From positions 1 to 30,384 of IMG/VR virus record IMGVR_UViG_3300049811_000026: 30,384 nt of DNA; one strand, written 5' to 3'. Of this stretch, positions 3,902 to 30,384 are shown in pieces; the first letter of the stretch is position 1, and each line of letters begins with the position of its first letter. The notes beneath the pieces are model-generated. The model made no database searches. It had not been told where the DNA came from and saw nothing but the letters and a program-made list of their open reading frames with translations. This stretch comes from a virus. The translations under genes and the position numbers were made by a program.

Positions 3902-4109
3902 CCCGAGAGACATGGAAGAACCCGAGTGGGTCTTCCCGTTCAACTTCATGAAGCAGGGGGATAGTTTCTTTATCCCAAGCGTACGCCCAGCGATCATGCT
4001 CACCAAGGCGATCAACGCGGCCCGCAAGGAGGGCTACACGGCCCGGGGCTTCGTCACGCGTGAGAATGGTCTGCTGGGCGTACGGGTCTGGCTGTTACTT
4101 TTCAGGTAG
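3882..4109 (+). CDS. Small conserved phage protein with GDSFFIP motif
   Basis: 75 residues from the ATG at 3882, which overlaps the end of the primase gene by 20 bases and has a CAGGT 9 bases upstream. An in-frame ATG at 3912 gives a 65-residue alternative. The core, a GDSFFIPS loop, then a helix (MLTKAINAARKEGYTARGFVTRE) and a final GVRVWLL strand, is a pattern I recognise from short uncharacterised proteins that follow replication genes in many phages. No function is known to me. Its last 15 bases overlap the 3' end of the oppositely oriented giant virion gene, so the two transcription units converge with no gap. Confidence 0.72.
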   Translation: MSSTSLDPRDMEEPEWVFPFNFMKQGDSFFIPSVRPAIMLTKAINAARKEGYTARGFVTRENGLLGVRVWLLLFR

Positions 4110-7100
4110 ATAGCGGTTCTGGTCGGCCATGTAGGCTCGATAGACAGTCACAAACGAACCCTTCAGGCGGTTCAGCCGCTTTTCTTCCTGCCGGATTAAC
4201 TCCTTGCGCATACCCGGCGTCATCTCACCAAGCTTGCCGTCGCGGATTTTGTTCATGGTCTCCCGAACTTGGTCGATCTGTGTCTTGTACGCCTTATAAG
4301 CATCCACGATGTCCAAACTGCGTGGGTTCGACACGAGATAGTCGGCGTAGCGGATCGGGTCCTTCAGGTTCTGAAGTTTGGTGATCCGCTGCTGGAGGTC
4401 CATCACCTGACGCTCATAGCGAGCGAACTTCGTCGCGTCGGGGCTAGGCTGCCGACCAAAGAAGCCACTGAAGAGGATCGAGTCACGCTTCGGTTCGAAG
4501 TCCTTCTTATCCATCATCCACGCACTGAGACCGTAGACGCTGCTGACGCCGTTCACCAGACCAGACGCGTAGTTCGTCAGGAAGTAGTGATACAACTCAG
4601 GCTCGATGTCGATGGCGTTGTCCTCCCCCGCTGCTTTGGCCGTGATCTCCTCGATGAACTGGGCGAGGTCGTTGTAGACCTCAGGCACGCGGTCAACCGC
4701 CCGGTAGGCGTCGCCATACTTGTTATGGCTGTTGGCCTTGTAGATCTCCTGTCCCAGACCATTAATGTTCACGAAGTACTCTACTAGCGGACGGGCGACC
4801 GTGGGTGATGCCGAATCAAGCAGCCACCATACAGACATCTCAGCAGCGGAGCGGTCGCTGGTACTGTCGAACGGGTTGAACTGGGCCACGGGCAGGGGGA
4901 GGTACGTGTCCGCACCGATAGACATGATGTTGCCCATCATCTGCCGACCGCCCTGATCCCCCGCAGCGAACGCAGCTACCTGAGCGCCCGACGACATCAA
5001 CGCGCCGAGACCGAAACCCCACGGAATCTGGTAGAAGTCTTTCTCGTCATCACCGAACCCAAAGAAGGACATCGGGATGCGGAGATTCCGGGTCCACAGT
5101 TCCTTGTTGTCGTAAGCGACGGCGTTCCGCTCCTCGTCGTCTTCGCCGCCCATCATCCGGGCCATCATGTAGCTCATGAAGCCCATGGAGGCGAAGAGGA
5201 CGCTGGTCATGGTCGCGTTCCGCTTCTGCTGCTTGATCTTCTTCATCGCCGCAGCCATAGCCACAGGGTCCTTCTGGACCTTCTCAGGCAGACGGTTCAG
5301 CAGCGTCGTCATGTCCGAGCGAAGCAGGGGGGCGATGGCGTCGAGGGTCCGGACCGCACCGGTCGCCGTCGGGCGGAAGAACATGAACAGGCTGCCCAGC
5401 GTCTTGCCGATCCGACCAACCTGTTCGAAGTTGATCAGGTTCTTGGTGTAGGCAGTGGCGTTCACTCGGGCAGCCGCCTCAGCCTCAGCCGGGGCGATGC
5501 CCTTGCCGATCAGTTCGCGCTTCACCTCGGACTTGTGGATGTCGTAGGCAGCGACGCGGGCCGACAACTCAAACATCATGGCCCAGTTATCGAAGAACTT
5601 GTCTAGCTGCTCGCGCTTGGCGGCGCGCAGCAGGTTCCCCAGCGCCCCCTTGCCCTTGCCGTACCGGTTGACGATCTCCTCGGGGAGCGCCTCGCGGGCG
5701 AAGGACTGGACGTAGGTAACGGCGCCACCCGACATCAGAAACTCGTAGGCACTCCGGTACTGGTAGGCGGTCTTCGGGTCGTTGGCGAGCTTTTCCAGCG
5801 TGGCGATGTCACCGTTCGCATAGAGCTTGGCTGCACGATGAGTGTGGACGAAACCCAGCCGGGCGACCCGGGCCGAGACGGCGCCCAGATACTTGAACCC
5901 AACCAGCGCACCCTTCTCGGCGCTCAGCACGCCCGCGTTGGTGAAGATGTCACGGACGAAGTTCTTCAGGCCGAAGGACAGGTTGAACCGGGTGAACTGC
6001 TTGCCGATGAAGGCCGTGGCCGCCCCCACCGCGCCGAAGAACGCCTGCACGAATTCATCGTCCTGCGAGTAAGCACGCTGGAGCATCTCCTTCTGCTCTT
6101 TCTTCGTGAGCGTGTAGACCTCGATGCTGCCGTCATCGTTGTAGTAGATGAACTTGTCGTTGCCGAGGGTGAGTTCCTTGGACAATTCCTTGGCGCGGTC
6201 GGAGAACTTGATCAGCTTCGGCTTGGTCTTCTCCTTCGACTCGATGTGCCCCTGCTGGATCGCGTTGCGAGTTGCCCCACGGGCCTCGGACTGGGCGACG
6301 CGCATAGCGGCGCGCACCGCGTCCATCTGGATCTGGATGACCGGCGGCGTACCTTCCTCGGTCCGACCGCTGAAGCCGACGGCGACCTCGTTCTTGAACT
6401 CGGGGCTGTAGCGAGGGCCACCGTAGTCCATCATCTGCTCGCGGGTGACGTTGCTGACGATGCCCTTGTAGGGCACGTAGTTCTCCCAGCCGTACAGCCG
6501 CTTGATGTTGGACACGCCTTGTGACCAGAAGTTGGCCTCGATGTTCAGGCGCTCGGTTTCATCCTGAATGCGTCGCATCGTCTTGATGGCGTCTTGAATG
6601 GCACCCTTGCCAACCCGCGTACCGTTCTTCAGGTACCCGTTATCATAGATATCCTTGAAGTCCTGATACTCATCCGGGTGGATGTCGCCGAACACCTGAT
6701 ACCGCTCGTTGTCGATGTTGATGATATCCGGGTCAACAGGCGCGGGCTTGCTCGATGCGTTCTTGCCGTAGTCCTCAAGGCTACGCCCCTCGGGCTTCAG
6801 GTACTTGCTGCCCGGCTCGGTGATCTTGTAGAGCAACGGGCGATACGTCTTCTCGATCAGGTCTTCGAACGCCTTCTTCTCCGCTGCGTTGGCGAAGGAG
6901 GTCTTGTTGTGCATCTTCTCCCAGATCATCTCCCGGAGAGTGGCAGCGCCCACCTTGGTCTTCTGGACCTTGCCCGTCTTGTCCACGGTGGTGATGCTGA
7001 AGACCTTGTTGTCGTCGTCCAGAGGCACGTTGAGGGCGAACAGCGTGCGGCGCCGCTCCTTGGCATGGAGCATCATCATGGTGCGGTCCACGAGAACCGC

Positions 7101-10100
7101 AGCCTCCTTGACGTCCATACCGGTCTCGGCCGAGAGCTTGCGCACCGCCTGTTCGAAGGCGGCGAAGTCCGGGTCGAATACCGAACTCACCAGCCGCCGG
7201 GCGATACCCGACGAGTTGGTGATGTGGTCCATGAAGTTGTTGAATGACTTCAGGGGGTCCGCGTTCCGGGTGTAGATCAGCAGATCAGACAGCCAAAGCT
7301 GCTGCTGCAACTCGTAGCCCAGCCGACGGTCATTCTGGACCTCGCGTACGAGTTTGCTATACGTGTCGTACTTGAACGTCGCCTGCCAGAACTGCCGGAA
7401 GGTCGGACGCTTTTTCAGGTACTTCCAGAAGACCTTGCTACCGTCAGCCAGAACCTGTCCTACCGTCCGCTTCGCTGGCGGCGGGGCCTTGAGTTTTTGC
7501 CCGGGAGTGTTCCGCTTGGCAGCGAGCGAGTAGGTCAGAGGGGCTTTCTGGTCCTCCTCCCGCCGGGCGATATTCTCAACCTGAATCTCGTTGATGGCGC
7601 CATCACTGGTCAACTGCTCAGTGATGCGGAGCGCCTCGGTCAGTTCCGTCTCGGCACCAGCCGGCAGGCCCAGCATCTCGCGGACCCACTTCACGAACGT
7701 GCCGAACAGCCCGTTCTTTGGGTTAGGGGACGGGAGACTCTCAAGGAACCGCTGGAAATTCGGGTCGCTCAGGGCATAGGGCAGGACTTCGTCCGGCAAC
7801 TTGTGGAAGCCTCCGGCACGCTTCTTCTTGAAGATGCCGCTCGCTGCATCCTCGATCCCAAATTCCTTGATCGCCTCAGGTGTCATCGCTTTCATGACGC
7901 GATCAGCGAAGTCGTCGTACTGGTGCATCAGCTTGGCGAGCTTGCTATTGCGGCCAATCCGGACGTGCCCAAGGCCGATCTCACGCAGGGGCTGGATCAC
8001 CGCATGAACCAATTCGTGCAGGGCGATGGTCGGGTTGCTGCCGTTCTTCGGATGCAGGACGACATCGACGCCGAGGTTGCCGGTGCCGGGATCGATCTCG
8101 GGATCCGCCTGCCAGTTGATGATGGCCTTACCAGCGGTACGGATCTTGCTGTCGTAGGTCAGGGGACCGAACTTGACTCCAGCCACGCTCTCCAGCCGTT
8201 CCAGTACCTGTTTCACGTGGCGGGCAACGGCCTTGACGGCATTACTCTCGGCCTCTTCAGCCAGATAGGTAGCGAGTTCGACTAGCGTCTTCCCGTCGGT
8301 CGCGTCAACGAAGTCCTTGCCCGTGACCTCGTTGACGTCAGGGTTCTCGTTCTTGGCTTTCTTCCGGGACTTGGCCGGCGTCGTAGTAGCGGTATCGGCC
8401 TCAGTCGTCGTACCAACGAGGTCTTCCGTCGCGTTGACGTTCTCCAGTTCAGGCTTGCGGGCAAGCTGGGTCTGGGCCTCGGTGGGCACGTCGGCATTGG
8501 CGCGCTGAACCGTCCCCAGCCCGGAGAGGTTGACCGTCTCTACAGCCGACTCTACGGCCTCAGCGATCTCTTCTTCCGCCGTAGCTTTCTCCGCTTCCAC
8601 CTGTTGGGCGTCGGTGCGGCGCTTGCCCGTGATGCCTGCTTCCTTTCGGGCCTGCTCGGTCTCAACGACACGGGACTGGGCCTCCTTCTTGGCAGCCTCC
8701 TCAGCCTGCGCCATGGACTTCGCGACGCGGTTGCGGACCGTGACCTTCTCGTTGACTGACCGCTCCAGTTCACTCAACCGCGCTTCAATACCCAGCCGGA
8801 CCTCAGCCCGCTTGTCAGCCGTGGCCTTGGCCTTCTCCATCTCGTTCAATTCAGCGATGAGAGCGTTGTACTCACGCGTGGTGAACGGACGGTAGGGGCT
8901 GCTCTCGGGCAGCTTCATCGCAGGCGCAGCGGGGCCAACACCGTTCGCCAGAACGCGCAGTGTGCGAAGCTTCTTGTATAGTGGATCAGCCTCACCAGTA
9001 ACAACAGGGGCCGCAGCATCCTCCATCTTCCGGGAGGCTTTGGTGTTGTAAGTACGGGTCTTGGCAGTCTTGTTCCCACGAGGAGGCAACTTCAGGCTGA
9101 CCAAGTAGTCGTCAGTGAGTTCGCGATAGTTCTTCTCTGCCGTCAGGGGGGTGACAATTTTATCCGCCTCAAGCTTCTGCATGAGGGCGAGATAATCCAG
9201 AGGGTCACGGATGGCCGAGACCGACTGTCTGAACTCCCGCAACAGAGGGATCTCGTAGAAAGCATTCCGCGCACGGGTTTTAAGGAACGCGAGTGCTTCC
9301 TTGTAAAGCTCAGAACTTACACGAGAGCCGCCAGCTTCCTCATTAAAGCGGCGCTGTCTACGCTGCGCGTTGTATGCAGTAGTTTCAGCGACGTTGAGTT
9401 CCCGGCGGCGGTCATCCTCCTGTTGGCGGACCTTCTCCGCTGCCGCAGCATCCGCTTTCTTCTGTGCTTCCTTCTGGGTCTTACTCCGCTGGGTGGCCGA
9501 CCCGACCGGGGCAGCGAGGAGTTCCGCGACGTCAGCCTGAGCCGCAGGGTCCCAGACGACGCCGTTCTTCGTCATGTCACGTAGCAGCCGGACCAGCGGG
9601 ACGTCTTTCCAGTCTGTCCAGCCGTGCTTACCCTGCTTCAGCTTGAGGCGATCAACAAGCTGCTGGGTGAGGTCACGCTGGTCTTGGGGAAGGGCAGCGC
9701 GGAGCGTCTCAAGGCGTGCAGCTTCGGCTGCTCTGGCCTCACGGCGCTGTCTGGCGTTGTAGCCGGTGTTTACCGGCGCGGCCCCGGGGGCCGCGTTCGC
9801 GGCCGCGTTCGTGGCCGGCGGCGGAGGGGGCGGAGCTTCTTGGCCAGTAACCTGAACGGCATCGGTAACACCCGGTGGAGCCTCTTGTACGGGTGTAGCA
9901 GCGGAAGCAGTAGGCGGCGGACTAGCAACGGCGTCGCCAGTAGCTGGAGAAGGACCAGTAGATTCAGGGGCCGAATTCTCAGCAAGCCGCGCCGCTGCTT
10001 CCTCGGGACTCAGAACGCGGGGCATCGCGTTAGGATCGTTTCTTGGGCGGGGAATAATGACACTGCGGTCGATAAGCTCTTTCTCAATGAGCTTCGCAGT

Positions 10101-11816
10101 TTTCTCATCTACGCCAAGAAGTTTTTGTATCCCTGCACGCGTACCATTATTAGCGGCACGGACTTTGGCGGCTGCGTCAACAAAAACTTCCTCGGTAATC
10201 GGAGTCCCCGGTAACTGTGAGCGGTCAGTACCATCAAGCTCAGCCGCCGCAGCTTCGATGGCGTCAGGATCCTCCGTGATTACATCCGGAAGGTCTAGCT
10301 GACCGCCCGCTTCAACGCCCGGAGGAGGGGCCTTAGTAGGATCAGTAAGCAGAGTATCTGTAGATACGCCAGCCTCCGCCTCAACGTTCGCCTGAGCGGC
10401 CTTGTCCAGTTCATCAATGTCACTGCCGTACTCGCCGAGCCGCTTGGTAGCGTCCTTGATGTTTTTCTCAGCCGCGTCGTACTCATCCCGCAGGGACCCC
10501 TGATCCCGGGCAGTGAGCGTCTTGTCGGTGTCCAGCTTCTGCTTGATCTCTAGCTGGCGGCGCCGATCCCGCACGATCTCGGTGTACGTCTGGTCAATAA
10601 GTTGTTTACGTGGATTGTCCGGCGGCGCGACGTTCTGAGTGGGGGTCCCCGCTGCCGTGTTGGCCGGGGGGTTCTGCTGGCCCTGTACCTTCTCACGCAG
10701 GGCGCGAGCAAGACCCACCGTCTCGACTGCCGAACCACCGATACCGCCGAGGGTCTCCAGTGCCACGCTCTCGGGGTCGATCTCGCCGTAGGCAGCCTTC
10801 TGGCCTGCGGCTTCGCCAGCACCCTCACCAGCGACGTTGACGCCGATACCGGCGAGACCCCGGCGGGCGTCCTGCCCGACCGTACGAGCCATCATGGCTT
10901 CGTCTACAAGCTTCGTGATCTGTGCCGTGGTAGCGGCCGGGCCAAGCTGCTCCTTGGCGGCGGCGATGGCAGCGCGGCGAGGGGCACCCGCGACCCGGGC
11001 ACCGCCAATCGAGAAGGCGGCATCGACTGCCGACAGCACGACAGCCTTCGTGCGCGCTTCACCAGCGGCCTTGTCAGTAAACTTCTTATCAGACAGTACA
11101 GCGGCGACGTTTTCTTCGGTGACAGGCAGGCCCCGGCGCCGGACCTCCTTGATGACGTTGCCAGAGAACTCGGCACCGGCCTCGACCGAAAGGCCCCCGA
11201 TGAATCCACCAGCGAAGCCGCCACCGACAGCGCCCACCAACGCACCCGCAGGGCCAGCCACAGCACCACCAGCCAGTGCGCCCGTCTTGGCGCCTGCGTA
11301 GGCACCCATGATGGCGGGGACCATGTTGCCTGCCTGCTCGGCCGTGAAGTACCAGACGCCCTTCGGGTTCGTCAGGATCTGCTTGCCCATCTCCAGCAGC
11401 ATGCCGCCCGTGGCACCCAGCTTCTGCATGCCGGTGGCCTCGGGGTCTTCGAAGACAGCCGCTTCGTCCCGGAAGGCTTCCTTGACCTCGGTAAGCTGCT
11501 TCGGCTGCGGGCGGGTCTGCTCCGCGTAGCTCGCGGCGATGTTCTTGGCCTGATCAGTGACGTCACCACCGAAGAGAACATCAGGCGACGCCTTGAGAGC
11601 ACCAAGGGCCTGACGCCCACCGGACACGAGCAAGTCGCCCGTATCTTGGGCAGCCTCCTGCGGGGGTGGCTGGGCCGCAGCCCCCTGTGCCTGAGCTTCG
11701 CGGGCTTCAAGTTCCAGTTGGGCGATGCGGCCTTGGATGTAGGCGATCTTCTGACCGTCCTCCATCAACTGGGCAGTGCGAAGCAGGCGGCGGTAATCCT
11801 CGATTGAGCGCGCCAT
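4095..11816 (-). CDS. Giant polyvalent internal virion/ejection protein with zincin (HExxH) motif and LPD38-like region
   Basis: 2573 residues. Order along the chain: a helical N-terminus; a Gly/Ala-rich membrane-active-looking stretch at about 168-212; a charged coiled-coil region; a Pro/Ala-rich linker at about 600-690; a long Lys/Glu coiled coil at about 770-1100; and a zincin-like metallopeptidase segment. In the last, IALHELVHAVI holds HELVH at 1267-1271 and a downstream glutamate (E1343, in DEVLPYAL) is a candidate third ligand. The last 1100 residues resemble the large polyvalent protein-associated region LPD38, with RFNLSFGLKNFVRDIFTN near 1940 and a SGFFGRQPSP tail near 2445. Such proteins sit in the podovirus head and are ejected with DNA, analogous to T7 gp16. 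It is the last gene of the late operon, after three other internal-virion-type genes, 5 bases after the preceding stop. The peptidase activity is inferred from motif only. Confidence 0.87.
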   Translation of the reverse strand: MARSIEDYRRLLRTAQLMEDGQKIAYIQGRIAQLELEAREAQAQGAAAQPPPQEAAQDTGDLLVSGGRQALGALKASPDVLFGGDVTDQAKNIAASYAEQTRPQPKQLTEVKEAFRDEAAVFEDPEATGMQKLGATGGMLLEMGKQILTNPKGVWYFTAEQAGNMVPAIMGAYAGAKTGALAGGAVAGPAGALVGAVGGGFAGGFIGGLSVEAGAEFSGNVIKEVRRRGLPVTEENVAAVLSDKKFTDKAAGEARTKAVVLSAVDAAFSIGGARVAGAPRRAAIAAAKEQLGPAATTAQITKLVDEAMMARTVGQDARRGLAGIGVNVAGEGAGEAAGQKAAYGEIDPESVALETLGGIGGSAVETVGLARALREKVQGQQNPPANTAAGTPTQNVAPPDNPRKQLIDQTYTEIVRDRRRQLEIKQKLDTDKTLTARDQGSLRDEYDAAEKNIKDATKRLGEYGSDIDELDKAAQANVEAEAGVSTDTLLTDPTKAPPPGVEAGGQLDLPDVITEDPDAIEAAAAELDGTDRSQLPGTPITEEVFVDAAAKVRAANNGTRAGIQKLLGVDEKTAKLIEKELIDRSVIIPRPRNDPNAMPRVLSPEEAAARLAENSAPESTGPSPATGDAVASPPPTASAATPVQEAPPGVTDAVQVTGQEAPPPPPPATNAAANAAPGAAPVNTGYNARQRREARAAEAARLETLRAALPQDQRDLTQQLVDRLKLKQGKHGWTDWKDVPLVRLLRDMTKNGVVWDPAAQADVAELLAAPVGSATQRSKTQKEAQKKADAAAAEKVRQQEDDRRRELNVAETTAYNAQRRQRRFNEEAGGSRVSSELYKEALAFLKTRARNAFYEIPLLREFRQSVSAIRDPLDYLALMQKLEADKIVTPLTAEKNYRELTDDYLVSLKLPPRGNKTAKTRTYNTKASRKMEDAAAPVVTGEADPLYKKLRTLRVLANGVGPAAPAMKLPESSPYRPFTTREYNALIAELNEMEKAKATADKRAEVRLGIEARLSELERSVNEKVTVRNRVAKSMAQAEEAAKKEAQSRVVETEQARKEAGITGKRRTDAQQVEAEKATAEEEIAEAVESAVETVNLSGLGTVQRANADVPTEAQTQLARKPELENVNATEDLVGTTTEADTATTTPAKSRKKAKNENPDVNEVTGKDFVDATDGKTLVELATYLAEEAESNAVKAVARHVKQVLERLESVAGVKFGPLTYDSKIRTAGKAIINWQADPEIDPGTGNLGVDVVLHPKNGSNPTIALHELVHAVIQPLREIGLGHVRIGRNSKLAKLMHQYDDFADRVMKAMTPEAIKEFGIEDAASGIFKKKRAGGFHKLPDEVLPYALSDPNFQRFLESLPSPNPKNGLFGTFVKWVREMLGLPAGAETELTEALRITEQLTSDGAINEIQVENIARREEDQKAPLTYSLAAKRNTPGQKLKAPPPAKRTVGQVLADGSKVFWKYLKKRPTFRQFWQATFKYDTYSKLVREVQNDRRLGYELQQQLWLSDLLIYTRNADPLKSFNNFMDHITNSSGIARRLVSSVFDPDFAAFEQAVRKLSAETGMDVKEAAVLVDRTMMMLHAKERRRTLFALNVPLDDDNKVFSITTVDKTGKVQKTKVGAATLREMIWEKMHNKTSFANAAEKKAFEDLIEKTYRPLLYKITEPGSKYLKPEGRSLEDYGKNASSKPAPVDPDIINIDNERYQVFGDIHPDEYQDFKDIYDNGYLKNGTRVGKGAIQDAIKTMRRIQDETERLNIEANFWSQGVSNIKRLYGWENYVPYKGIVSNVTREQMMDYGGPRYSPEFKNEVAVGFSGRTEEGTPPVIQIQMDAVRAAMRVAQSEARGATRNAIQQGHIESKEKTKPKLIKFSDRAKELSKELTLGNDKFIYYNDDGSIEVYTLTKKEQKEMLQRAYSQDDEFVQAFFGAVGAATAFIGKQFTRFNLSFGLKNFVRDIFTNAGVLSAEKGALVGFKYLGAVSARVARLGFVHTHRAAKLYANGDIATLEKLANDPKTAYQYRSAYEFLMSGGAVTYVQSFAREALPEEIVNRYGKGKGALGNLLRAAKREQLDKFFDNWAMMFELSARVAAYDIHKSEVKRELIGKGIAPAEAEAAARVNATAYTKNLINFEQVGRIGKTLGSLFMFFRPTATGAVRTLDAIAPLLRSDMTTLLNRLPEKVQKDPVAMAAAMKKIKQQKRNATMTSVLFASMGFMSYMMARMMGGEDDEERNAVAYDNKELWTRNLRIPMSFFGFGDDEKDFYQIPWGFGLGALMSSGAQVAAFAAGDQGGRQMMGNIMSIGADTYLPLPVAQFNPFDSTSDRSAAEMSVWWLLDSASPTVARPLVEYFVNINGLGQEIYKANSHNKYGDAYRAVDRVPEVYNDLAQFIEEITAKAAGEDNAIDIEPELYHYFLTNYASGLVNGVSSVYGLSAWMMDKKDFEPKRDSILFSGFFGRQPSPDATKFARYERQVMDLQQRITKLQNLKDPIRYADYLVSNPRSLDIVDAYKAYKTQIDQVRETMNKIRDGKLGEMTPGMRKELIRQEEKRLNRLKGSFVTVYRAYMADQNRYLPEK

Positions 11817-21074: not shown

Positions 21075-21857
21075 TCAGTCTTGCCACTCAGGCTCAGTGG
21101 GGACGGGAACCGCCGCCCATGCCGGGGCTACTGGGCTATGCGCATCCCCCCACGCAGTAGCCACGGGGGCGACGGGGACCCAGCCGCCGGGGGGTCCCGT
21201 ATCAATAGTAGCCCAGATCTGGACAGGCAACGAGGGTAACGTTCTCACCCACGGAGTAGCACCAGTTACGTTGAGAATTGCCTGCCCGACAAGGGTAGCA
21301 GCGCCGTAGCGGACGCCCGGCAAGCGAGTACCGAACGCATCGAGAAGAGCTATACCAGTCAGGGTAGCGGCGCCGAGGGCTGTACGTCGCCCGGTAGCGG
21401 AAATGGAAGCCGTACCAGTCAGGGGGGCCGAACCAAACGTCGTCCGCCGACCATTTATAGAGAGGGTCGCTACACCAGTCAGGGTAGCAGCGCCAAAACT
21501 AACTCGTCGCCCAGTGGCAGAAATGGACGCCACGCCCATGAACGACACACTGCCGAAGGTGGTGCGCTGGCCGGTCGCGAACAGCGAAGCAGTGCCGGTG
21601 AGCGTAGCAGCACCGAACTCGGCACTACGCCCCGTCGCGGAGATAGAAGCCGTACCCGTGAGGAGAACGCTACCGAAAGTGGTGCGCTTACCGTTTACGA
21701 GTACAGATGCCGCGCCGGTGAGTGTGGCGGCGCCGGTATGCGAAGTAGCCCCGGAGTCCCAGAAAAGCGCCCGAGCGGCATCACCGGCTGGACCAGCGTC
21801 GAACCAGACTGGATCACTACCAGCCGGGATTGCGCCTAAGTTGAACGGCTCGGCCAT
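21075..21857 (-). CDS. Tandem-repeat, fibre-like virion protein
   Basis: 260 residues, unrecognised as a family. Start overlaps the upstream stop (TAATG), with no strong ribosome binding site, suggesting translational coupling. Residues 42-161 are six perfect-length 20-residue repeats, two types alternating: GAATLTGxASxxxxGxRTTF and GSVxLTGTASISATGRxxxF. Two looser copies follow from 162 and 185. Each repeat is short beta strands joined by Gly, as in beta-solenoid or beta-prism fibres. The C-terminal 55 residues are Pro/Trp-rich (VQIWATIDTGPPGGWVPV) and could be a cap or attachment segment. The position immediately before the tail fibre gene supports a fibre or spacer role, which is inferred. 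Confidence 0.74.
   Translation of the reverse strand: MAEPFNLGAIPAGSDPVWFDAGPAGDAARALFWDSGATSHTGAATLTGAASVLVNGKRTTFGSVLLTGTASISATGRSAEFGAATLTGTASLFATGQRTTFGSVSFMGVASISATGRRVSFGAATLTGVATLSINGRRTTFGSAPLTGTASISATGRRTALGAATLTGIALLDAFGTRLPGVRYGAATLVGQAILNVTGATPWVRTLPSLPVQIWATIDTGPPGGWVPVAPVATAWGDAHSPVAPAWAAVPVPTEPEWQD
21246..21734 (-). repeat. Coding tandem repeats, 60-base unit
   Basis: Eight in-frame copies of a roughly 60-base unit within the gene at 21075-21857. The first six (21375-21734) are exactly 20 codons each and alternate between two subtypes, so the higher-order period is about 120 bases. Copies 7 and 8 carry a 3-residue insertion and more divergence. On the plus strand a phrase near gtaccagtcagggtagcagc recurs at about 21411, 21471 and similar positions. 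Confidence 0.85.
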
Positions 21858-22660
21858 TAAATTGCCAAAGTCATTGGACTAATTAAGTGTGTACCGGAGC
21901 CGTCCTGTTGAAGTACCACAAACTCCAGACAGCAGTCGGTCGGTAGCCCGGTAGCAGCCAGCGACCAAGGAACGCGGGTTTGCCGCTCGTAAAGCGCATG
22001 CCCTAGTACACCAAGCACGCGAAAAGCCGACACACCGATATTACCGGCAGTAGCTGTGCTAGTAGTCAGAGTGAGGGACTGAACGCTTCTAACTCCGTCA
22101 GGAGTAGAGAATGGCACAAGCCGTTGTGCGGTACGGGCATCGCCAGTACCGCCGATTGCGTAGGGCCAAACTATAGTTTGACCCGAGGTCCCCGCAGCGT
22201 TTGTATACGTAATTGTTATATTTCCGCTTGACGTACTTCCAACTGTAGTCCAGATTTCGATTGCCCAGAGTACGTCTGAGTAATTACTGGCGCCTCGCCG
22301 GACTGTCATATTACTAGTTGCCACAGAGACATCTGGGCCGGCGACGAAACTCTGGAGAGTTGTTACGTTTGCTACCAAACCCGAGGCTGAAGTCAGCCGA
22401 TCTAAGACGTACATCTGAGAACCCGCATATAGGTTGTTATACGCGATTTCCGCACTAACTAAATAAGCGCCCTGTCCACCACCGGGCGTAGGGATGGGGC
22501 ATATGGAGTTTGTGCTGTTGTACACAACTGCGGTTGTGCCGGGGGCGGATAAAGTAGACAGCCGTCGCAAGACCATCTGTGCTCCGGTAACGCCTAAACC
22601 TATGGAGTTATAGCTGACCGGTTCATGCAGCTTGGGTATTTTTGAAACAGCGTCTAGCAC
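21857..22660 (-). CDS. Beta-rich virion protein, paralogue of its upstream neighbour
   Basis: 267 residues from a GTG start at 22660, with AAGGAT 7 to 8 bases upstream. It shares with the 282-residue product encoded just upstream the blocks (x)LYVLDRL/LYLVDRL, GASNYSDVLWAIEIWTTVGS, ITITYTNAAGTSGQT, IGG, RLVPF and TLTTSTATAGNIGVSAFRVL, in the same order and spacing. The pattern of a DRL block, then W-x-x-E-x-Y/W-T-x-x-G-S/T and a YTNxAG strand, is one I have seen in uncharacterised phage structural proteins thought to be capsid decoration or fibre proteins. The DNA is visibly A+T-richer than the flanks (22 G or C in 60 bases at 22201-22260). The role is inferred from context. Confidence 0.7.
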   Translation of the reverse strand: MLDAVSKIPKLHEPVSYNSIGLGVTGAQMVLRRLSTLSAPGTTAVVYNSTNSICPIPTPGGGQGAYLVSAEIAYNNLYAGSQMYVLDRLTSASGLVANVTTLQSFVAGPDVSVATSNMTVRRGASNYSDVLWAIEIWTTVGSTSSGNITITYTNAAGTSGQTIVWPYAIGGTGDARTAQRLVPFSTPDGVRSVQSLTLTTSTATAGNIGVSAFRVLGVLGHALYERQTRVPWSLAATGLPTDCCLEFVVLQQDGSGTHLISPMTLAI

Positions 22661-22664
22661 GGCA

Positions 22665-23513
22665 TTATCCTTGAATCAGGACAGGCGTGATATTCATTAG
22701 GCCCGTAGTGGCATTCGCAGAAAACATAACAAAGCTTAAACAAGCATCATCAGGGATCGTAGCAAGCAGCGTGCGAGTCCAATCAGCGCATACTCCAGAA
22801 TTAGCGGGACCGACATTAATATGGGCAAGAGGGCGGTACGCTACAAAGCCGAAGTTACCAGCAGTACCTGTCGAAGCAGACAACGTACAATTATTCAACT
22901 GGGAACAACCGCCAGTAATCGCTAACGGAAACAACCGCCCTGCTCGGTTTGCGGGCGAAGCACCACCAATACCGTTAGTGAACGTCTGTGTTTGGCCATC
23001 AGTCTCTGCGGCATTTCGGTAGTTGATCGAAAGGTTACGAGCCGTGGTACCAATGTCGGTATAAATTTCCATGGCCCAGCGAATATCAGAATAGTCGGAA
23101 GCTCCGATCCGGGCAGCCGAGACGTTGGCGCTTGAAATACGAAGGTCGATGCCAACAGTCTGAGCAGTAAGCGTTGTGGCGTTTAATCCCCCTACGTGAG
23201 CAAGGCGGTCTACCAGATACAGATGGTGACCAGTAGCAGAGGCTACCGCAGTAATGCTAGCAAGATAATGTTCAGCAGGAGCAGTCGGATTAGTAAAATT
23301 ACGAAGACTCCCCTTGGTAGCTTTTGTTAAATATGCGGCACTTGTGCCGGGAGTATCGGTTCCAGCAACCATGTAAGTCGGTAGATCTTGATACAACCAT
23401 AGATCCGACCAGCCGCTAGCGAGCTGGTTAGCAATAGAGCGGTATTGCATCATTGTCGCTACAGCAGCATTAGCTACCGCATTAACAAGATCATCTGGAG
23501 AAGTAATAGCCAC
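22665..23513 (-). CDS. Beta-rich virion protein, paralogue of its downstream neighbour
   Basis: 282 residues. The start is GTG at 23513 with AGGTG 5 bases upstream. The first 60 residues are helical and differ from the neighbour (VNAVANAAVATMMQYRSIAN). Residues about 95-250 match it: HHLYLVDRLAHVGGL, GASDYSDIRWAMEIYTDIGT, LSINYRNAAETDGQT, RLFPLAI, TLSASTGTAGNFGFVAYRPL. The gene ends 4 bases before the neighbour's GTG, so the pair arose by tandem duplication or was acquired as a unit. The helical N-terminus may anchor it to the virion. It lies in the same lower-G+C patch. Confidence 0.7.
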   Translation of the reverse strand: MAITSPDDLVNAVANAAVATMMQYRSIANQLASGWSDLWLYQDLPTYMVAGTDTPGTSAAYLTKATKGSLRNFTNPTAPAEHYLASITAVASATGHHLYLVDRLAHVGGLNATTLTAQTVGIDLRISSANVSAARIGASDYSDIRWAMEIYTDIGTTARNLSINYRNAAETDGQTQTFTNGIGGASPANRAGRLFPLAITGGCSQLNNCTLSASTGTAGNFGFVAYRPLAHINVGPANSGVCADWTRTLLATIPDDACLSFVMFSANATTGLMNITPVLIQG

Positions 23514-23904: not shown

Positions 23905-24525
23905 TTACCGCGTGCGGCGGTAGGGCTGGGCACGCTTGGCAAAGATCCCACGCTCCTGCATGAGCGTGATGGATTCGGTGTACATGGTATTGATCGTCGC
24001 GACCATGTCCTGTTCACCCTTCATGAAGACATTGTACGCCTCACGAAGCGACCCATAGAGCAGGACTTGGTCAGCCTTGTCACCCAACCACGTAGTTCCG
24101 GCAGTCGCGATGGACTCCGGATACGCGAAGAAGTCCAACTGGACAGAGTAAGCCAGATCCGGCGTCGGCCCGACAATCAACGTGTTCTCGTCGAACTGCC
24201 CGTAATACTTGGGCATCGCCTCGGCAGCAGGGTCCGGATATGCCTCCCGGATGTAGGTGACGTCTTTCTCGATGAGATAACGGATGAGGCCGGTCCCTGA
24301 AGTGACGCTTAACGCAAACGGGCTGATCATGTCCGTAGGAGCCGCGAGGTAGGGACTCCCGATGGTCAGCGTACCGACCTGACTTTCCCGGGCGGCGGGG
24401 AGGTAGCCAGCGTCGTAGATCCGTTTCTCGGCCAGCCGGACGAACGTCGGGATGCTGGCTACGAAGGTAGCTTCAGCGTTCTCGGTGTAGTCGATGATGG
24501 CCTGCTGAAGCTCGGCGTAGTTCAC
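23905..24525 (-). CDS. Head-tail adaptor protein (SU10 adaptor-like)
   Basis: 206 residues from GTG 24525. This start has GAGGG with 6 bases of spacing, while the TTG at 24531 directly abuts that site and is unlikely. The N-terminus YAELQQAIIDYTENAEATF with FVRLAEKRIYDAGYLPAARE is the helical opening of the SU10-type adaptor family. The middle strands (SPYLAAPTDM, LIRYLIEKDVTYIREAYPD, MPKYYGQFDENTLIVGPTPD) and C-terminal helices (KADQVLLYGSLREAYNVFMK) follow the family's order. Twelve such subunits typically join portal to tail nozzle. A second adaptor-like gene lies 420 bases upstream. Confidence 0.85.
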   Translation of the reverse strand: MNYAELQQAIIDYTENAEATFVASIPTFVRLAEKRIYDAGYLPAARESQVGTLTIGSPYLAAPTDMISPFALSVTSGTGLIRYLIEKDVTYIREAYPDPAAEAMPKYYGQFDENTLIVGPTPDLAYSVQLDFFAYPESIATAGTTWLGDKADQVLLYGSLREAYNVFMKGEQDMVATINTMYTESITLMQERGIFAKRAQPYRRTR

Positions 24526-24527
24526 TG

Positions 24528-24704
24528 TCAACCCTCATCGTGAAACATGTACCCCTTGGTGGCCGCACCGCTACCGCGCATCTTCTTGGCCACCCGCTTG
24601 TTGCGGCGGGGCAGCCAAGCGCGCGTAGGGTCGTTCACATCTGGGTCGTACAGCTTCTTGTCCATCAGATTGTACTTGTTGATCTTGTACTTGCCGTCTT
24701 TCAT
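24528..24704 (-). CDS. Small basic phage protein, 58 residues
   Basis: ATG at 24704, stop TGA at 24528-24530. Starts MKDGKYKINKYNLMDKKLYD, continues with a P-T-R-A-W-L-P-R-R-N-K-R stretch, and ends RGSGAATKGYMFHDEG. It is strongly basic, with 17 Lys or Arg in 58. The R-G-x-G-A-A-T-K/R-G motif near the end recurs in very small phage proteins encoded near head-tail genes. It fills exactly the space between the two adaptor-region genes: its stop overlaps the ribosome binding region of the downstream adaptor gene, and its start is 14 bases from the end of the 76-residue gene. Function unknown; nucleic acid or portal contact would fit the charge. Confidence 0.72.
   Translation of the reverse strand: MKDGKYKINKYNLMDKKLYDPDVNDPTRAWLPRRNKRVAKKMRGSGAATKGYMFHDEG
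24532..24536 (-). promoter_or_regulatory. Ribosome binding site deciding the adaptor start
   Basis: On the minus strand GAGGG lies 6 bases before a GTG at 24525. The longer frame would use TTG at 24531, touching the site. Spacing favours GTG. The site sits inside the last codons of the 58-residue gene, so the two are translationally linked. Confidence 0.65.
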
Positions 24705-24718
24705 GTCAGTACCTTGGA

Positions 24719-24949
24719 TTAGTCCTCAGAGGTATCAGGGCGGGGTTTCCGAAGCGCTTGACCGTCAACAACCGGATACTTGCCAACCTGCAACTGCGGA
24801 TGGTCAGGCTCCCAGCATTCACTACAGACCAGAAGATTAACGTCGCGGCTATTGATGGTCAGCGGCTTCAGTGAGTTGAGTTTAAAACGAAACCCGCACC
24901 GATCACAAATGCCGAGAGCGTGTTTACCCGAGGCGAACTTGGTGGTCAC
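24719..24949 (-). CDS. Small zinc-ribbon-like phage protein
   Basis: 76 residues, ATG overlapping the stop of the upstream gene as ATGA. Two CxxC pairs, ICDRCGF at about 14-20 and VCSECWEP at about 41-48, about 23 residues apart, form a likely four-Cys zinc ribbon. The start FASGKHALGICDRCGFRFKL and the end DHPQL...VVDGQAL-x-K-P-R-P-D-T are family marks I recognise from short proteins in many environmental phages, always near head-tail or structural genes. No function is known to me. Its placement between two adaptor-type genes suggests an assembly factor or minor virion part. Confidence 0.78.
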   Translation of the reverse strand: MTTKFASGKHALGICDRCGFRFKLNSLKPLTINSRDVNLLVCSECWEPDHPQLQVGKYPVVDGQALRKPRPDTSED

Positions 24950-25662
24950 GGCCGACTCACCCGTGGGACAAGGCGGAGGGCAGAGCGGTCTCGATCCTCA
25001 TCTGCTGCGCGAAGCCACACGTCGTCGTAGTCGCCCTTGAGGAGCGGGGTTTTCACCTCCGCGCCGGGGATCTTCATGGACAGATAGTACGCCAGCCCAG
25101 CGACCAGCGCGGGCAACATCCGGAAAGGAATATCCTGTCCATTCATACCGTCACCGGCACTCTTCATACGCCGAAGCCGCCAGTACACGAGGGTGTACGT
25201 CGCGGAGACATCAGGCACCGGCCACAGCACCGCCCGGGGTGGTACAGGGTTCAAGTTGGCGTCCGTGGCACCAGACCGCCGGTCCACCCAGATCTGGTTA
25301 GGTCGCCCCGGTGAGTTCTTGGCGGGGATCGCCGAGTAGGTAGACATCGACATGCGGGCGAGGGGGAGATCCGACTGCCCCTGCCCCGCACCAGTCCGAA
25401 TACCGAACTCGATCAGGTCTACGGTATCGACCGGAAGGTTATAGGCCGCCGTACCCGCCACCAGCGGGATGGAGCCTTCCTCAATGGTCCAAAGGTTGAT
25501 CCCCCGGTTGGCCCACTCCAGCAGGAGCAGGTTCAGGGACCGCCGGGCCGTCCGGAAATCATAGCCCGAGCGAACCTCAGCGCCACAGCGCTCGTACGCT
25601 TCCTCGATGATCTCAGCGAGGTCGAGGTTGAAGTCTGCGGCGGCTGAGATTGGCTCGGCCAT
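24946..25662 (-). CDS. Head-tail adaptor / tail-tube A-like protein
   Basis: 238 residues from ATG 25662. The N-terminus FNLDLAEIIEEAYERCGAEV, then SGYDFRTARRSLNLLLLEWA and N-R-G-I-N-L-W-T, is a strongly conserved opening in environmental podoviruses. Later blocks, IPLVAGTAAYNLPVDTVDLI, PGRPNQIWVDR, VLWPVPDVSATYTLVYWRLR and a helix MLPALVAGLAYYLSMKIP, follow the general adaptor plan: helical bundle, beta strands, C-terminal helix. It is probably the first of two adaptor rings, or the counterpart of P22 gp4. The distinct N-terminus means it is not a simple duplicate of the 206-residue adaptor encoded downstream. Confidence 0.83.
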   Translation of the reverse strand: MAEPISAAADFNLDLAEIIEEAYERCGAEVRSGYDFRTARRSLNLLLLEWANRGINLWTIEEGSIPLVAGTAAYNLPVDTVDLIEFGIRTGAGQGQSDLPLARMSMSTYSAIPAKNSPGRPNQIWVDRRSGATDANLNPVPPRAVLWPVPDVSATYTLVYWRLRRMKSAGDGMNGQDIPFRMLPALVAGLAYYLSMKIPGAEVKTPLLKGDYDDVWLRAADEDRDRSALRLVPRVSRP

Positions 25663-27721: not shown

Positions 27722-28240
27722 TTACCCAGTCGGAAACTGACGGAGCGTATTCGGGTCGCGGGCGTAGTATTCAATTCCGATACGCAGAGACCCAGACAAC
27801 GCCACGGTGCCGCTGATGAAGGGGAACACAAACGCACCGAGTATAGCAGCCGGGGCACGGTTGGCTACGCTATTGGAGGCCGAGTTGCCTACGTCAGTGG
27901 TTATTGCCCGGAACGGGTTAATCGGAGTAGTGCCCAAAGATTGCCCCGCACGGTAGTTGACAGAAAACTCACCATCCAGTTCAAGGAGCGCAAGCGTACA
28001 GAAAAACTCATCCGGTACTGAAGAGGTTATCTGGGACATGACGTCGATAGACACCCGGATGATCCGGGATGAGGCCGGCAGATAGGCGACCGGCTGGTAG
28101 ACAGGGTCGCCTACATCAGTCCCGAACGCAGTATAGGGGACATCGCCGTACTGGTACAGCTTCATGCCCCCGACGTTGCGGGCCGGGCCGCCAAAGACGG
28201 TGCCAGCGATGACAGGTCCAGAATACGTAGCAAAACCCAT
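27722..28240 (-). CDS. FSGPV-type minor structural/decoration protein, copy 2
   Basis: 172 residues, ATG 28240 preceded by AGGTGG. Starts GFATYSGPVIAGTVFGGPAR with N-V-G-G after it; later YLPASSRIIRVSIDV and a C-terminal LRIGIEYYARDPNTLRQFP. These three blocks match the upstream gene (FSTFSGPVRIGTVREGAQRN, NLPAGSKIIRFHIER, SIIVEYVQREPNGS). The family, with an 'F/Y-S-G-P-V' opening and an 'L-P-A-x-S-x-I-I' strand, is common in tailed phages and usually annotated as minor structural. It probably decorates the capsid or its fibre sites. Confidence 0.76.
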   Translation of the reverse strand: MGFATYSGPVIAGTVFGGPARNVGGMKLYQYGDVPYTAFGTDVGDPVYQPVAYLPASSRIIRVSIDVMSQITSSVPDEFFCTLALLELDGEFSVNYRAGQSLGTTPINPFRAITTDVGNSASNSVANRAPAAILGAFVFPFISGTVALSGSLRIGIEYYARDPNTLRQFPTG

Positions 28241-28254
28241 GTTACACCACCTGA

Positions 28255-28740
28255 TCAGGCGACAGAGCCATTCGGCTCACGCTGAACGTACTCAACAATG
28301 ATGCTCACGGCGCCCGCAGTGGGGTTACCGCCCGTGGCAGTGAACGTCCCGTAGACAGCAACGTCTTGCGTACCGATGTTGTCAGTAGCCGTAACCGGCA
28401 TGTTCGGGTCGATGGTAGACCGGGCGATAACTGCGGCGCCGGACGTGCCGAGCGCGGTGGCCGAGAGGTAAAGCGCTGGCGAAGCAAGCGTACCAACGGT
28501 CAAGTTGACGCCGGTAACACCGCCACCCGAAATGCCGGTGTTCCGCTCGATGTGGAAGCGGATGATCTTGGAGCCGGCTGGGAGGTTGAACAGAAGCTGC
28601 GGGGGCGGAGCAGCCGTGAGCGCGACGCCAGACATGGAAACGCTGGTGTTCTGGTTGAGCATCACCAACCCGAGATTCCGCTGGGCGCCCTCACGGACAG
28701 TGCCTATGCGGACAGGACCAGAGAAAGTTGAAAAGGCCAT
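28255..28740 (-). CDS. FSGPV-type minor structural/decoration protein, copy 1
   Basis: 161 residues with AAGGAT 7 bases before ATG 28740. It starts AFSTFSGPVRIGTVREGAQR and N-L-G-L-V-M-L-N-Q, the classic opening of this phage structural family, followed by LLFNLPAGSKIIRFHIERNT, a beta-rich middle (VNLTVGTLASPALYLSATAL) and a C-terminal VSIIVEYVQREPNG. It is the first gene after the only sizeable gap in the late operon and after the probable promoter, so it may be strongly expressed, as expected for a decoration protein. Its paralogue lies directly downstream. Confidence 0.78.
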   Translation of the reverse strand: MAFSTFSGPVRIGTVREGAQRNLGLVMLNQNTSVSMSGVALTAAPPPQLLFNLPAGSKIIRFHIERNTGISGGGVTGVNLTVGTLASPALYLSATALGTSGAAVIARSTIDPNMPVTATDNIGTQDVAVYGTFTATGGNPTAGAVSIIVEYVQREPNGSVA

Positions 28741-28820: not shown

Positions 28821-28829
28821 TCACTTCAA
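28801..28829 (-). promoter_or_regulatory. Putative sigma70-type promoter for the late structural genes
   Basis: On the minus strand a -35-like TTGAAG (28824-28829) and a -10-like TATAGA (28801-28806) are exactly 17 bases apart, each matching 4 of 6 consensus bases. The element overlaps the stop codon of the DUF1501 gene (28821-28823) and would start transcription near 28794, about 54 bases upstream of the first structural gene. CCCCA (28791-28795) and TGGGG (28812-28816) form inverted arms flanking the -10 and could be an operator or hairpin. This is a pattern match only. Confidence 0.45.
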
Positions 28830-30350
28830 GAAGCCGAGGTCCCAGCCCTCAAAGTTCACCAGATTCGGCAGAATCAGCGGCATCTGCGCAGACGGCACAC
28901 CGAACCACCGTAGAAGCGTCGCGTAGTACTGGTCAATCGAAACGTCAGGGATGTAACGCCCAAGATTGGTATCGACATCCCGACCAGCGCCGATAGTGTA
29001 GTCAGGCTCAATACCATAGAGACCACGAGTAATGTTCGACGGGCTGGCAATGACGAAGTGGTGCCCCGCCCACGCGTGGTCAGTGCCGTTCGTCGTGTTG
29101 GCCTTGAACGTCCGGCTGAACTCAGTCTCCGTAAAGACCGCAACGGTCTCGGAGAGCGGGGTGCCCGTGCCGTCAATCGTAAGGTCTTGGAGACAACGCC
29201 AGAAGCCCGCCAACCCAACGCTCATGGACTCCAGCAACCAGTCCATGTTGTTCCGGAGGTCGAGGTGGTTATCCCATCCGCCGATGCTGACCATGATGAC
29301 CTGACGCTGCTGATCCATCTCAGCACCGGCAACACGGGTCCGACTGTAGATGGCCCGCGCCGCTGCCTGAAGCTGGGTCCGGAACGGGTTCGACCGCACC
29401 ACACCGTTGCCATCAGTGACGTTCGGCATGTTGGTGATGTTGAAGTACGCGTCCTGCGCGCCGGGCAGGGGCAGCAGGTTCGTGTTCACCGCCTCCTGCG
29501 TCCGGATCGCATCAATGAAGTTGTCGCGCTGGGCATTATGGAGGTTGTTTACCGGCGAGTACGGCTGCGTGAACGGGAACGCATTCGTCGGCGCAGACGG
29601 GCTAGTCTGCGTCGTCGCGTGGTACATCTTATAAAGGCGGGTAGTAAACGAGTTAGCGTTAGTCGTACCAACCGTGTTACCCGTATTCATCTGCGTCGGC
29701 GGAATGATATTGGGGTTCGCCGCACCATACATCCACTGCTGAAGGCGCCGACCAGAAGTGCTGAACCCACTCGACTCTACCAACTGAGCCGGGTTGAACG
29801 AGGGGTCCATCAGATTCGCCGTACGGCCGAACCAGCCCGTCGTGCGAAGCTCTCGGTGACGCAGCGCCGCTTGCCAGATGTCCTGCTGAATGTTGTGCGC
29901 GAACAACTGGTCCGGGCGGATCTGATTCTGGTTGGCGAGGTACTCGGCCCGGGACGTCGGCCGGTTGAGGGTACCAACACTACGCACGATGGCCATCTGG
30001 TTGTCCTGCCAGAAGCTATAAAAGCTCTTGGCAGCAGGGCCGTGGTTCGTGCCCAGCTTGGGGTGCAGGCGCCAGTTCGGCGTGGTCCCGAGTTGGCAAG
30101 TCGGCGTCTCACCGATGCCGACACCAGACAGCGTAGTGGGGTACGTCACTGACGTAGCCGCCGGGGCCGGTGACGGCCGCCACGTGTCGTAGATGGTGCG
30201 GTTGGCCCCATCTACCGGCACAAGCATGTTGTGCGTATCAGCGCCACCAAACAGGAAGATACAAACGAGCGTCTTCGGCCCGGTAGACGTCGCCGCAGCG
30301 GCATCCATGGCGGGCTTGGCTGCTGTATATGAAGCCGGAATATCAGGCAT
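28821..30350 (-). CDS. DUF1501-family protein (alkaline phosphatase/sulfatase-like fold)
   Basis: 509 residues from ATG 30350 with GGGTGAT just upstream. Hallmarks of the family are all present: LVCIFLFGGADTHNMLVPVD at 28-47 (metal-site FGGAD), SIGGWDNHLDLRNNMDW with D360 and H362, TETEFSRTFK with E410 and R413, and NGTDHAWAGHHFVI with D424 and H425. Cellular members usually carry a Tat signal for export; here the first 25 residues are Ala/Pro-rich with no twin-Arg motif or clear hydrophobic core. The length is at the normal family range (about 400-520). Cellular members are often paired with a DUF1800 gene; none is seen here. It precedes two decoration-type genes. A hydrolase on a surface polymer or a structural use of the fold are both possible. 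Confidence 0.85.
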   Translation of the reverse strand: MPDIPASYTAAKPAMDAAAATSTGPKTLVCIFLFGGADTHNMLVPVDGANRTIYDTWRPSPAPAATSVTYPTTLSGVGIGETPTCQLGTTPNWRLHPKLGTNHGPAAKSFYSFWQDNQMAIVRSVGTLNRPTSRAEYLANQNQIRPDQLFAHNIQQDIWQAALRHRELRTTGWFGRTANLMDPSFNPAQLVESSGFSTSGRRLQQWMYGAANPNIIPPTQMNTGNTVGTTNANSFTTRLYKMYHATTQTSPSAPTNAFPFTQPYSPVNNLHNAQRDNFIDAIRTQEAVNTNLLPLPGAQDAYFNITNMPNVTDGNGVVRSNPFRTQLQAAARAIYSRTRVAGAEMDQQRQVIMVSIGGWDNHLDLRNNMDWLLESMSVGLAGFWRCLQDLTIDGTGTPLSETVAVFTETEFSRTFKANTTNGTDHAWAGHHFVIASPSNITRGLYGIEPDYTIGAGRDVDTNLGRYIPDVSIDQYYATLLRWFGVPSAQMPLILPNLVNFEGWDLGFLK

Positions 30351-30384
30351 TACATCACCCAGAATTCAGTAGTACGAATGATGA

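Follow-up and report, generated by a model that had tools for sequence, protein, structure and literature searches.

A DUF1501 protein without an export signal, g26, is encoded at the end of a phage virion operon in the window (the whole stretch analysed, a 30.4-kb linear IMG/VR record), and comparison with related phage loci suggests that it is one half of a DUF1800-DUF1501 pair shared with bacteria. We lean, by a little more than an even chance, toward a virion-carried pair that acts on or binds the host surface, for which we infer both the virion location and the chemistry.

Results

g26 and its operon

By its sequence, g26 belongs firmly to DUF1501. The PF07394 profile matches it over positions 2-322 of 390 with 60.2 bits (E 2.6e-16; the Pfam gathering score is 27), and a genome-level search of g26 against DUF1501 gave E 8.3e-16. 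The C-terminal conserved positions of the family are also aligned, and g26 keeps the family residues G35, G36, D38, R58, H152, Q155, D360, H362, F411, R413, D424, H425 and W427. The earlier note, made from the letters alone, was right about the coordinates, the strand and the full-length DUF1501 protein (Table 1); all the family motifs that it had listed were found, and the PF07394 search that it had proposed gave a significant match. It had also placed g26 within a phage virion operon, co-directional with virion genes, which is supported by g25 to g18 running in the same direction, with two SU10-type adaptors among them.

Table 1. Positions of g26, its motifs and neighbouring features in the window
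Feature	Position	Strand	Basis or remark
g18, SU10-type adaptor	23905..24531	(-)	query that found 80 related viral contigs
g19, SU10-type head-tail adaptor	24946..25662	(-)	PF24175, 5.3e-11
g24, paralogue of g25	27722..28240	(-)	
g25, family directly behind the major capsid gene in relatives	28255..28740	(-)	
g26, DUF1501 protein, 509 aa	28821..30350	(-)	ORF, PF07394 match and AF2 model
NGTDHAWAGHH, residues 421-431, [ST]DH	29058..29090	(-)	D424, H425 invariant
TEFSRT, residues 409-414	29109..29126	(-)	F411, R413 invariant
GGWDNH, residues 357-362	29265..29282	(-)	D360, H362 invariant in 71/71
FGGADTHN, residues 34-41	30228..30251	(-)	D38, putative first metal-ligand Asp
g26 N-terminal segment, residues 1-26, MPDIPASYTAAKPAMDAAAATSTGPK	30273..30350	(-)	in place of a Tat signal
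34 nt upstream of g26, then contig end	30351..30384	(-)	DUF1800 gene expected beyond
In-frame TGA bounding the g26 N-terminus	30366..30368	(-)	

The minus-strand operon also contains a gp80-like protein, the virion structural protein g09 and a 2573-aa LPD38 polyvalent protein (4095-11816), probably a giant internal virion protein. The GC (0.601) and GC3 (0.753) of g26 match its neighbours and give no sign of a recent foreign origin, which was set aside. Elsewhere in the window, the adjacent paralogues g15 and g16 (21857-23513) have GC3 values of 0.49 and 0.41, against mostly 0.6-0.87 in the rest of the window. A promoter and terminator scan near g26 found nothing above chance.

The major capsid gene (MCP) lies directly upstream of the g25 family in the 10 relatives with enough upstream sequence, at a distance below 250 bp in most of them, and HNH endonuclease genes are inserted there in three. 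g26 fills the slot ahead of g25, and the window's own capsid gene lies off the contig. The capsid-decoration role named earlier is a putative one for g25 and g24, read from the position behind MCP in relatives. g24 and g25 (27722-28740) are adjacent paralogues, and relatives carry a single family member behind MCP. The interval between MCP and the next structural gene is an insertion hotspot, with HNH or GIY-YIG genes in L036, L052, L080 and L166. In other contigs, L159:8587-10305 matches dCTP deaminase but is interrupted mid-way by a match to HNH endonuclease, which looks like an inserted selfish element, and L158:7279-11793 encodes a 1505-aa protein, a possible intein case, with a ribonucleotide reductase match in three stretches and helicase- and endonuclease-like parts. 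None of the 80 adaptor-related viral contigs carries DUF1501, so the window's phage group does not have the pair among its core genes.

The phage GenBank collection held no match to g26, and the DUF1501 protein of L091 had one weak match there, an unannotated 6.9-kb faecal scaffold. Scanning viral contigs with g26 as the single query found nothing, so an alignment was needed for that scan. By tblastn, the nearest match to g26 is L200/L201 (39% over 533 aa). A DUF1501 mention in Pseudomonas phage ZC03 was set aside, as it concerns a 61-aa protein with a weak match. A phage DUF1501 protein is already deposited, with an automatic name, in UniProt (A0A6J5M742, uncultured Caudovirales phage); it is the best structural match to g26 (E 2.2e-18) and the sole clear one in the viral library (BFVD/UniProt). 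Our literature search found no paper describing DUF1501 or DUF1800 in phages, nor one discussing A0A6J5M742 or a DUF1800 partner.

The N-terminus lacks an export signal

An in-frame TGA stands 15 nt (5 codons) above the ATG of g26 at 30350, with no other start codon in between. Since the frame is closed by this TGA and the ATG is the sole start below it, the absence of a signal is real and not the product of a wrong start. Residues 1-26 have neither a twin-arginine motif nor a hydrophobic core, and phage homologues have comparable short N-termini (MPLPTGFVDAQPAM.., MPQPTNFTAAQPAM.., MPASPASYASAQ..). The earlier statement that g26 has no visible export signal is thus borne out for Tat and Sec alike. 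All ~55 cellular homologues sampled, in contrast, carry a twin-arginine motif 38-55 residues ahead of the GG.D..N motif; they were picked by similarity to g26 from Pseudomonadota, Acidobacteriota, Thermus and plasmids, and the motif was scored with a simple pattern, not a trained predictor. The twin-arginine signal is usual in DUF1501 but not defining.

The DUF1800 proteins of phages likewise begin without signal-like hydrophobic stretches, except in L163, where DUF1501 has a Tat motif and DUF1800 a hydrophobic signal. Phage pairs have signals on both proteins or on neither. Because the L163 pair keeps both, at least one phage pair looks exported, not virion-borne. The record that holds it (IMGVR_UViG_3300037882_003354, 322 kb, T4-like) contains two DUF1800-DUF1501 pairs, and the other, L172, has signals on neither protein.

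A DUF1800 partner is expected beyond the contig end

The earlier note had set g26 apart from cellular DUF1501 genes, which sit with DUF1800 genes. This contrast proved to be an artefact of truncation: only 34 nt separate the start of g26 from the contig end, so the upstream neighbour is missing, not absent. Profile scans of IMG/VR recovered DUF1501 or DUF1800 in about 20 phage records. In 18/18 phage loci with both sides on the contig, DUF1501 is immediately preceded by a co-directional DUF1800 gene, the independent count being somewhat below 18 because L163 and L172 share a record and L200 and L201 appear to be one phage. In each of the four singletons (the window, L164, L170 and L202), a contig end interrupts the locus. 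L166, which has the capsid family (MCP 75% identical to that of L037) and both adaptors of the window group, shows the order MCP, GIY-YIG gene, 133-aa gene, DUF1800, DUF1501, minor tail protein, adaptors. In L202, a phage of the window's group (MCP 84% identical to that of L037), MCP and a small gene are followed by a DUF1800 gene running into the contig end; the nearest relatives of this DUF1800 are in L160, L161, L162 and L091, whose DUF1501 proteins form the clade of g26. Judging from these related phages, the window would be expected to read MCP, small gene, DUF1800, g26, g25.

The same two families make up the bacterial DUF1800-DUF1501 operon (PF08811-PF07394), found for example in Agarilytica plasmid pSU2, Sphingomonas, Vibrio and Pyrinomonadaceae; such co-operons and Tat export have been described (PMC5122149). 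Phage relatives show the same gene order and near-contact, and g26 keeps the DUF1501 motifs. Unlike the bacterial operon, which has export signals and lies outside virion operons, g26 is signal-less and has no DUF1800 on its contig. Distances among the DUF1501 proteins rise and fall with those among their DUF1800 partners (Mantel r 0.93 for 21 pairs and 0.83 for the 13 phage pairs, p 0.0001).

Unrelated tailed phages carry the pair

Pair carriers belong to at least five capsid families: phrog_1328 (L160), 334 (L174), 267 (L173), 29 (L168) and 371 (L166). Neck or terminase genes of T4 type occur in L164, L170 and the 322-kb L163/L172 record, and L091 has terminase, portal and scaffold genes. 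L171 belongs to an IMG/VR record that seems to come from an isolate genome. A 59-row tree, built by a quick method with long branches and no bootstrap, joined g26 and nine other phage proteins in one group (SH-aLRT 98), with L091, L160, L161 and L162 nearest g26 (97). In this tree, g26 falls in a well-supported phage-only clade. L163, L166/L169, L171 and L174 are placed outside the group, L163 among cellular proteins, and therefore more than one uptake is likely. An earlier, more careful tree had only two phage rows, which paired at 100/91; it had long branches, and the 59-row tree superseded it.

Fibre, baseplate or tail genes lie at most two genes from the pair in L160, L166, L168, L172, L174, L200 and L203, namely a minor tail protein in L166 and fibre/baseplate genes in the other six. 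The N-terminus of the L200 DUF1800 has a modest match (3e-5) to phrog_677 (baseplate wedge tail fiber connector), and a baseplate wedge protein is encoded two genes up from it (8.4e-31). The N-terminus of the L203 DUF1800 looks similar by eye and has no PHROG match. The L091 DUF1800 has a coiled-coil-like start and Cadherin_5 and DUF4082 domains.

Conserved residues and predicted fold

Across 71 phage and cellular homologues, R58, H152, Q155, D360, H362, F411, R413, D424, H425 and W427 are present in all or nearly all. The two D424 and H425 positions are, like D360 and H362, kept in 71/71, and D38 in 69/71, being Cys in L165 and L168. Among the 71, no Ser, Thr or Cys in the right region is invariant at a convincing nucleophile position. 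The best candidate is S151 (64/71 homologues), which is Ala in g26, L091, L162 and L167. The cellular consensus is Ser151 (52/55), Asn124 (53/55) and Asp179 (51/55), and g26 differs at all three positions (A151, S124, N179), so its activity may be altered or lost.

An AF2 model of g26 from a 24-row alignment reached pLDDT 78.2 and pTM 0.85; a first model from 11 near cellular rows was discarded (pLDDT 49). In the model, D38 comes directly past the first beta strand (26-32), and the secondary structure puts the ligand-type residues at core-strand ends. All 50 PDB matches listed by Foldseek belong to the alkaline-phosphatase superfamily (sulfatases, MCR-1 phosphoethanolamine transferase, LtaS, alkaline phosphatase), with a best E of 0.0098, none of the 50 below 0.001, probability up to 0.82 and poor global TM-scores. 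Model and matches point weakly to this superfamily, which would fit the phosphatase/sulfatase-like fold put forward earlier. Like its members, g26 has the [ST]DH, D-x-H and strand-end Asp pattern; unlike them, it has no recognisable nucleophile, the significance is low, and a sequence search against solved structures gave no match.

Discussion

Our data suggest that tailed phages took a DUF1800-DUF1501 pair from bacteria and that g26 is its DUF1501 half. Bacteria export both proteins, DUF1501 through Tat and DUF1800 through Sec or lipoprotein-type signals. In most pair-carrying phages both signals are gone, DUF1501 has a short signal-less N-terminus, and the pair is encoded among the virion genes, mostly with fibre or baseplate neighbours. 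The L200 and L203 DUF1800 proteins begin with a fibre-anchor-like segment. Most likely, DUF1800 would serve within the virion as a fibre or surface platform, on which DUF1501, a putative metal-binding protein of alkaline-phosphatase-superfamily type, would ride. At adsorption, the pair might bind or modify a host-envelope group of phosphorylated, sulfated or phospholipid type. Since the pair would act outside the cell, an export signal would not be needed. A counter-point to this fibre-linked reading is that, in the window, g26 adjoins head genes, not fibre genes. The earlier idea of a virion-borne hydrolase is plausible, if unproven; its support from context consists of the fibre/baseplate neighbours and the connector-like N-terminus in L200. 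More tentatively, and a little short of an even chance, the two proteins may form a virion module, a fibre-anchored platform with an alkaline-phosphatase-fold enzyme, that unrelated tailed phages acquired repeatedly for host-surface modification.

Two rivals are live but less likely. In one, the pair may be made during infection and work inside the host cell as an auxiliary metabolic or host-modifying enzyme pair, whose location in the late operon would be incidental. For a protein with no signal the cytoplasm is the default location, and HNH genes also enter the cargo site between MCP and g25. However, export of all sampled cellular relatives points to a probable extracellular substrate, and the location of the pair beside fibre/baseplate genes in unrelated phages, together with the L200 DUF1800 N-terminus, also speaks against an intracellular role. 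In the other, of the same fairly low probability, the fold and the pairing were kept while catalysis was lost, leaving DUF1501 as a glycan- or phosphate-binding virion protein. The departures of g26 from the cellular Ser, Asn and Asp would fit such structural or receptor-binding reuse, as would the Cys of L165 and L168, but A151 occurs in 3/55 cellular members too. Moreover, R58, H152, Q155, D360, H362, R413, D424 and H425 are invariant among phages with about a quarter to a third identity, which points to selection for a site that is active or at least binds metal.

Export of the phage protein by the host, as in the cellular family, is conceivable for the L163 pair of the 322-kb T4-like record with its Tat motif and hydrophobic signal. 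For the window it is refuted by the missing signals and the frame closed just upstream, barring a sequencing error that hides another start, and we give it very little credence. Hardly any weight falls on an assembly chimera or bacterial contamination, which the position of g26 at the very end of the contig might bring to mind: its composition matches its neighbours, its clade is phage-only with signal-less members, and two phages of the window's group have matching genes at the equivalent position, L166 the whole pair and L202 its first gene.

The virion-carried pair would resemble phage virion-associated polysaccharide depolymerases and deacetylases in its proposed role, as a virion-borne enzyme directed at a surface polymer and encoded with tail genes; unlike these, it consists of two separate genes, not one tailspike (PMC5380687). 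The known virion depolymerase classes comprise glycosidases, lyases, a peptidase, predicted lipases and deacetylases, and the words phosphatase and sulfatase are absent from that review (PMC5380687). If the proposed role is true, phosphatase- or sulfatase-type chemistry would be added to the known virion enzymes, and the two-protein module would stand apart, as a virion enzyme class, from the glycosidase, lyase and esterase depolymerases known so far. In bacteria, DUF1501 and DUF1800 proteins are widespread and exported, and papers note their partnership without a function. Signal-less yet still paired genes in virion clusters make the function of the bacterial pair testable in purified virions.
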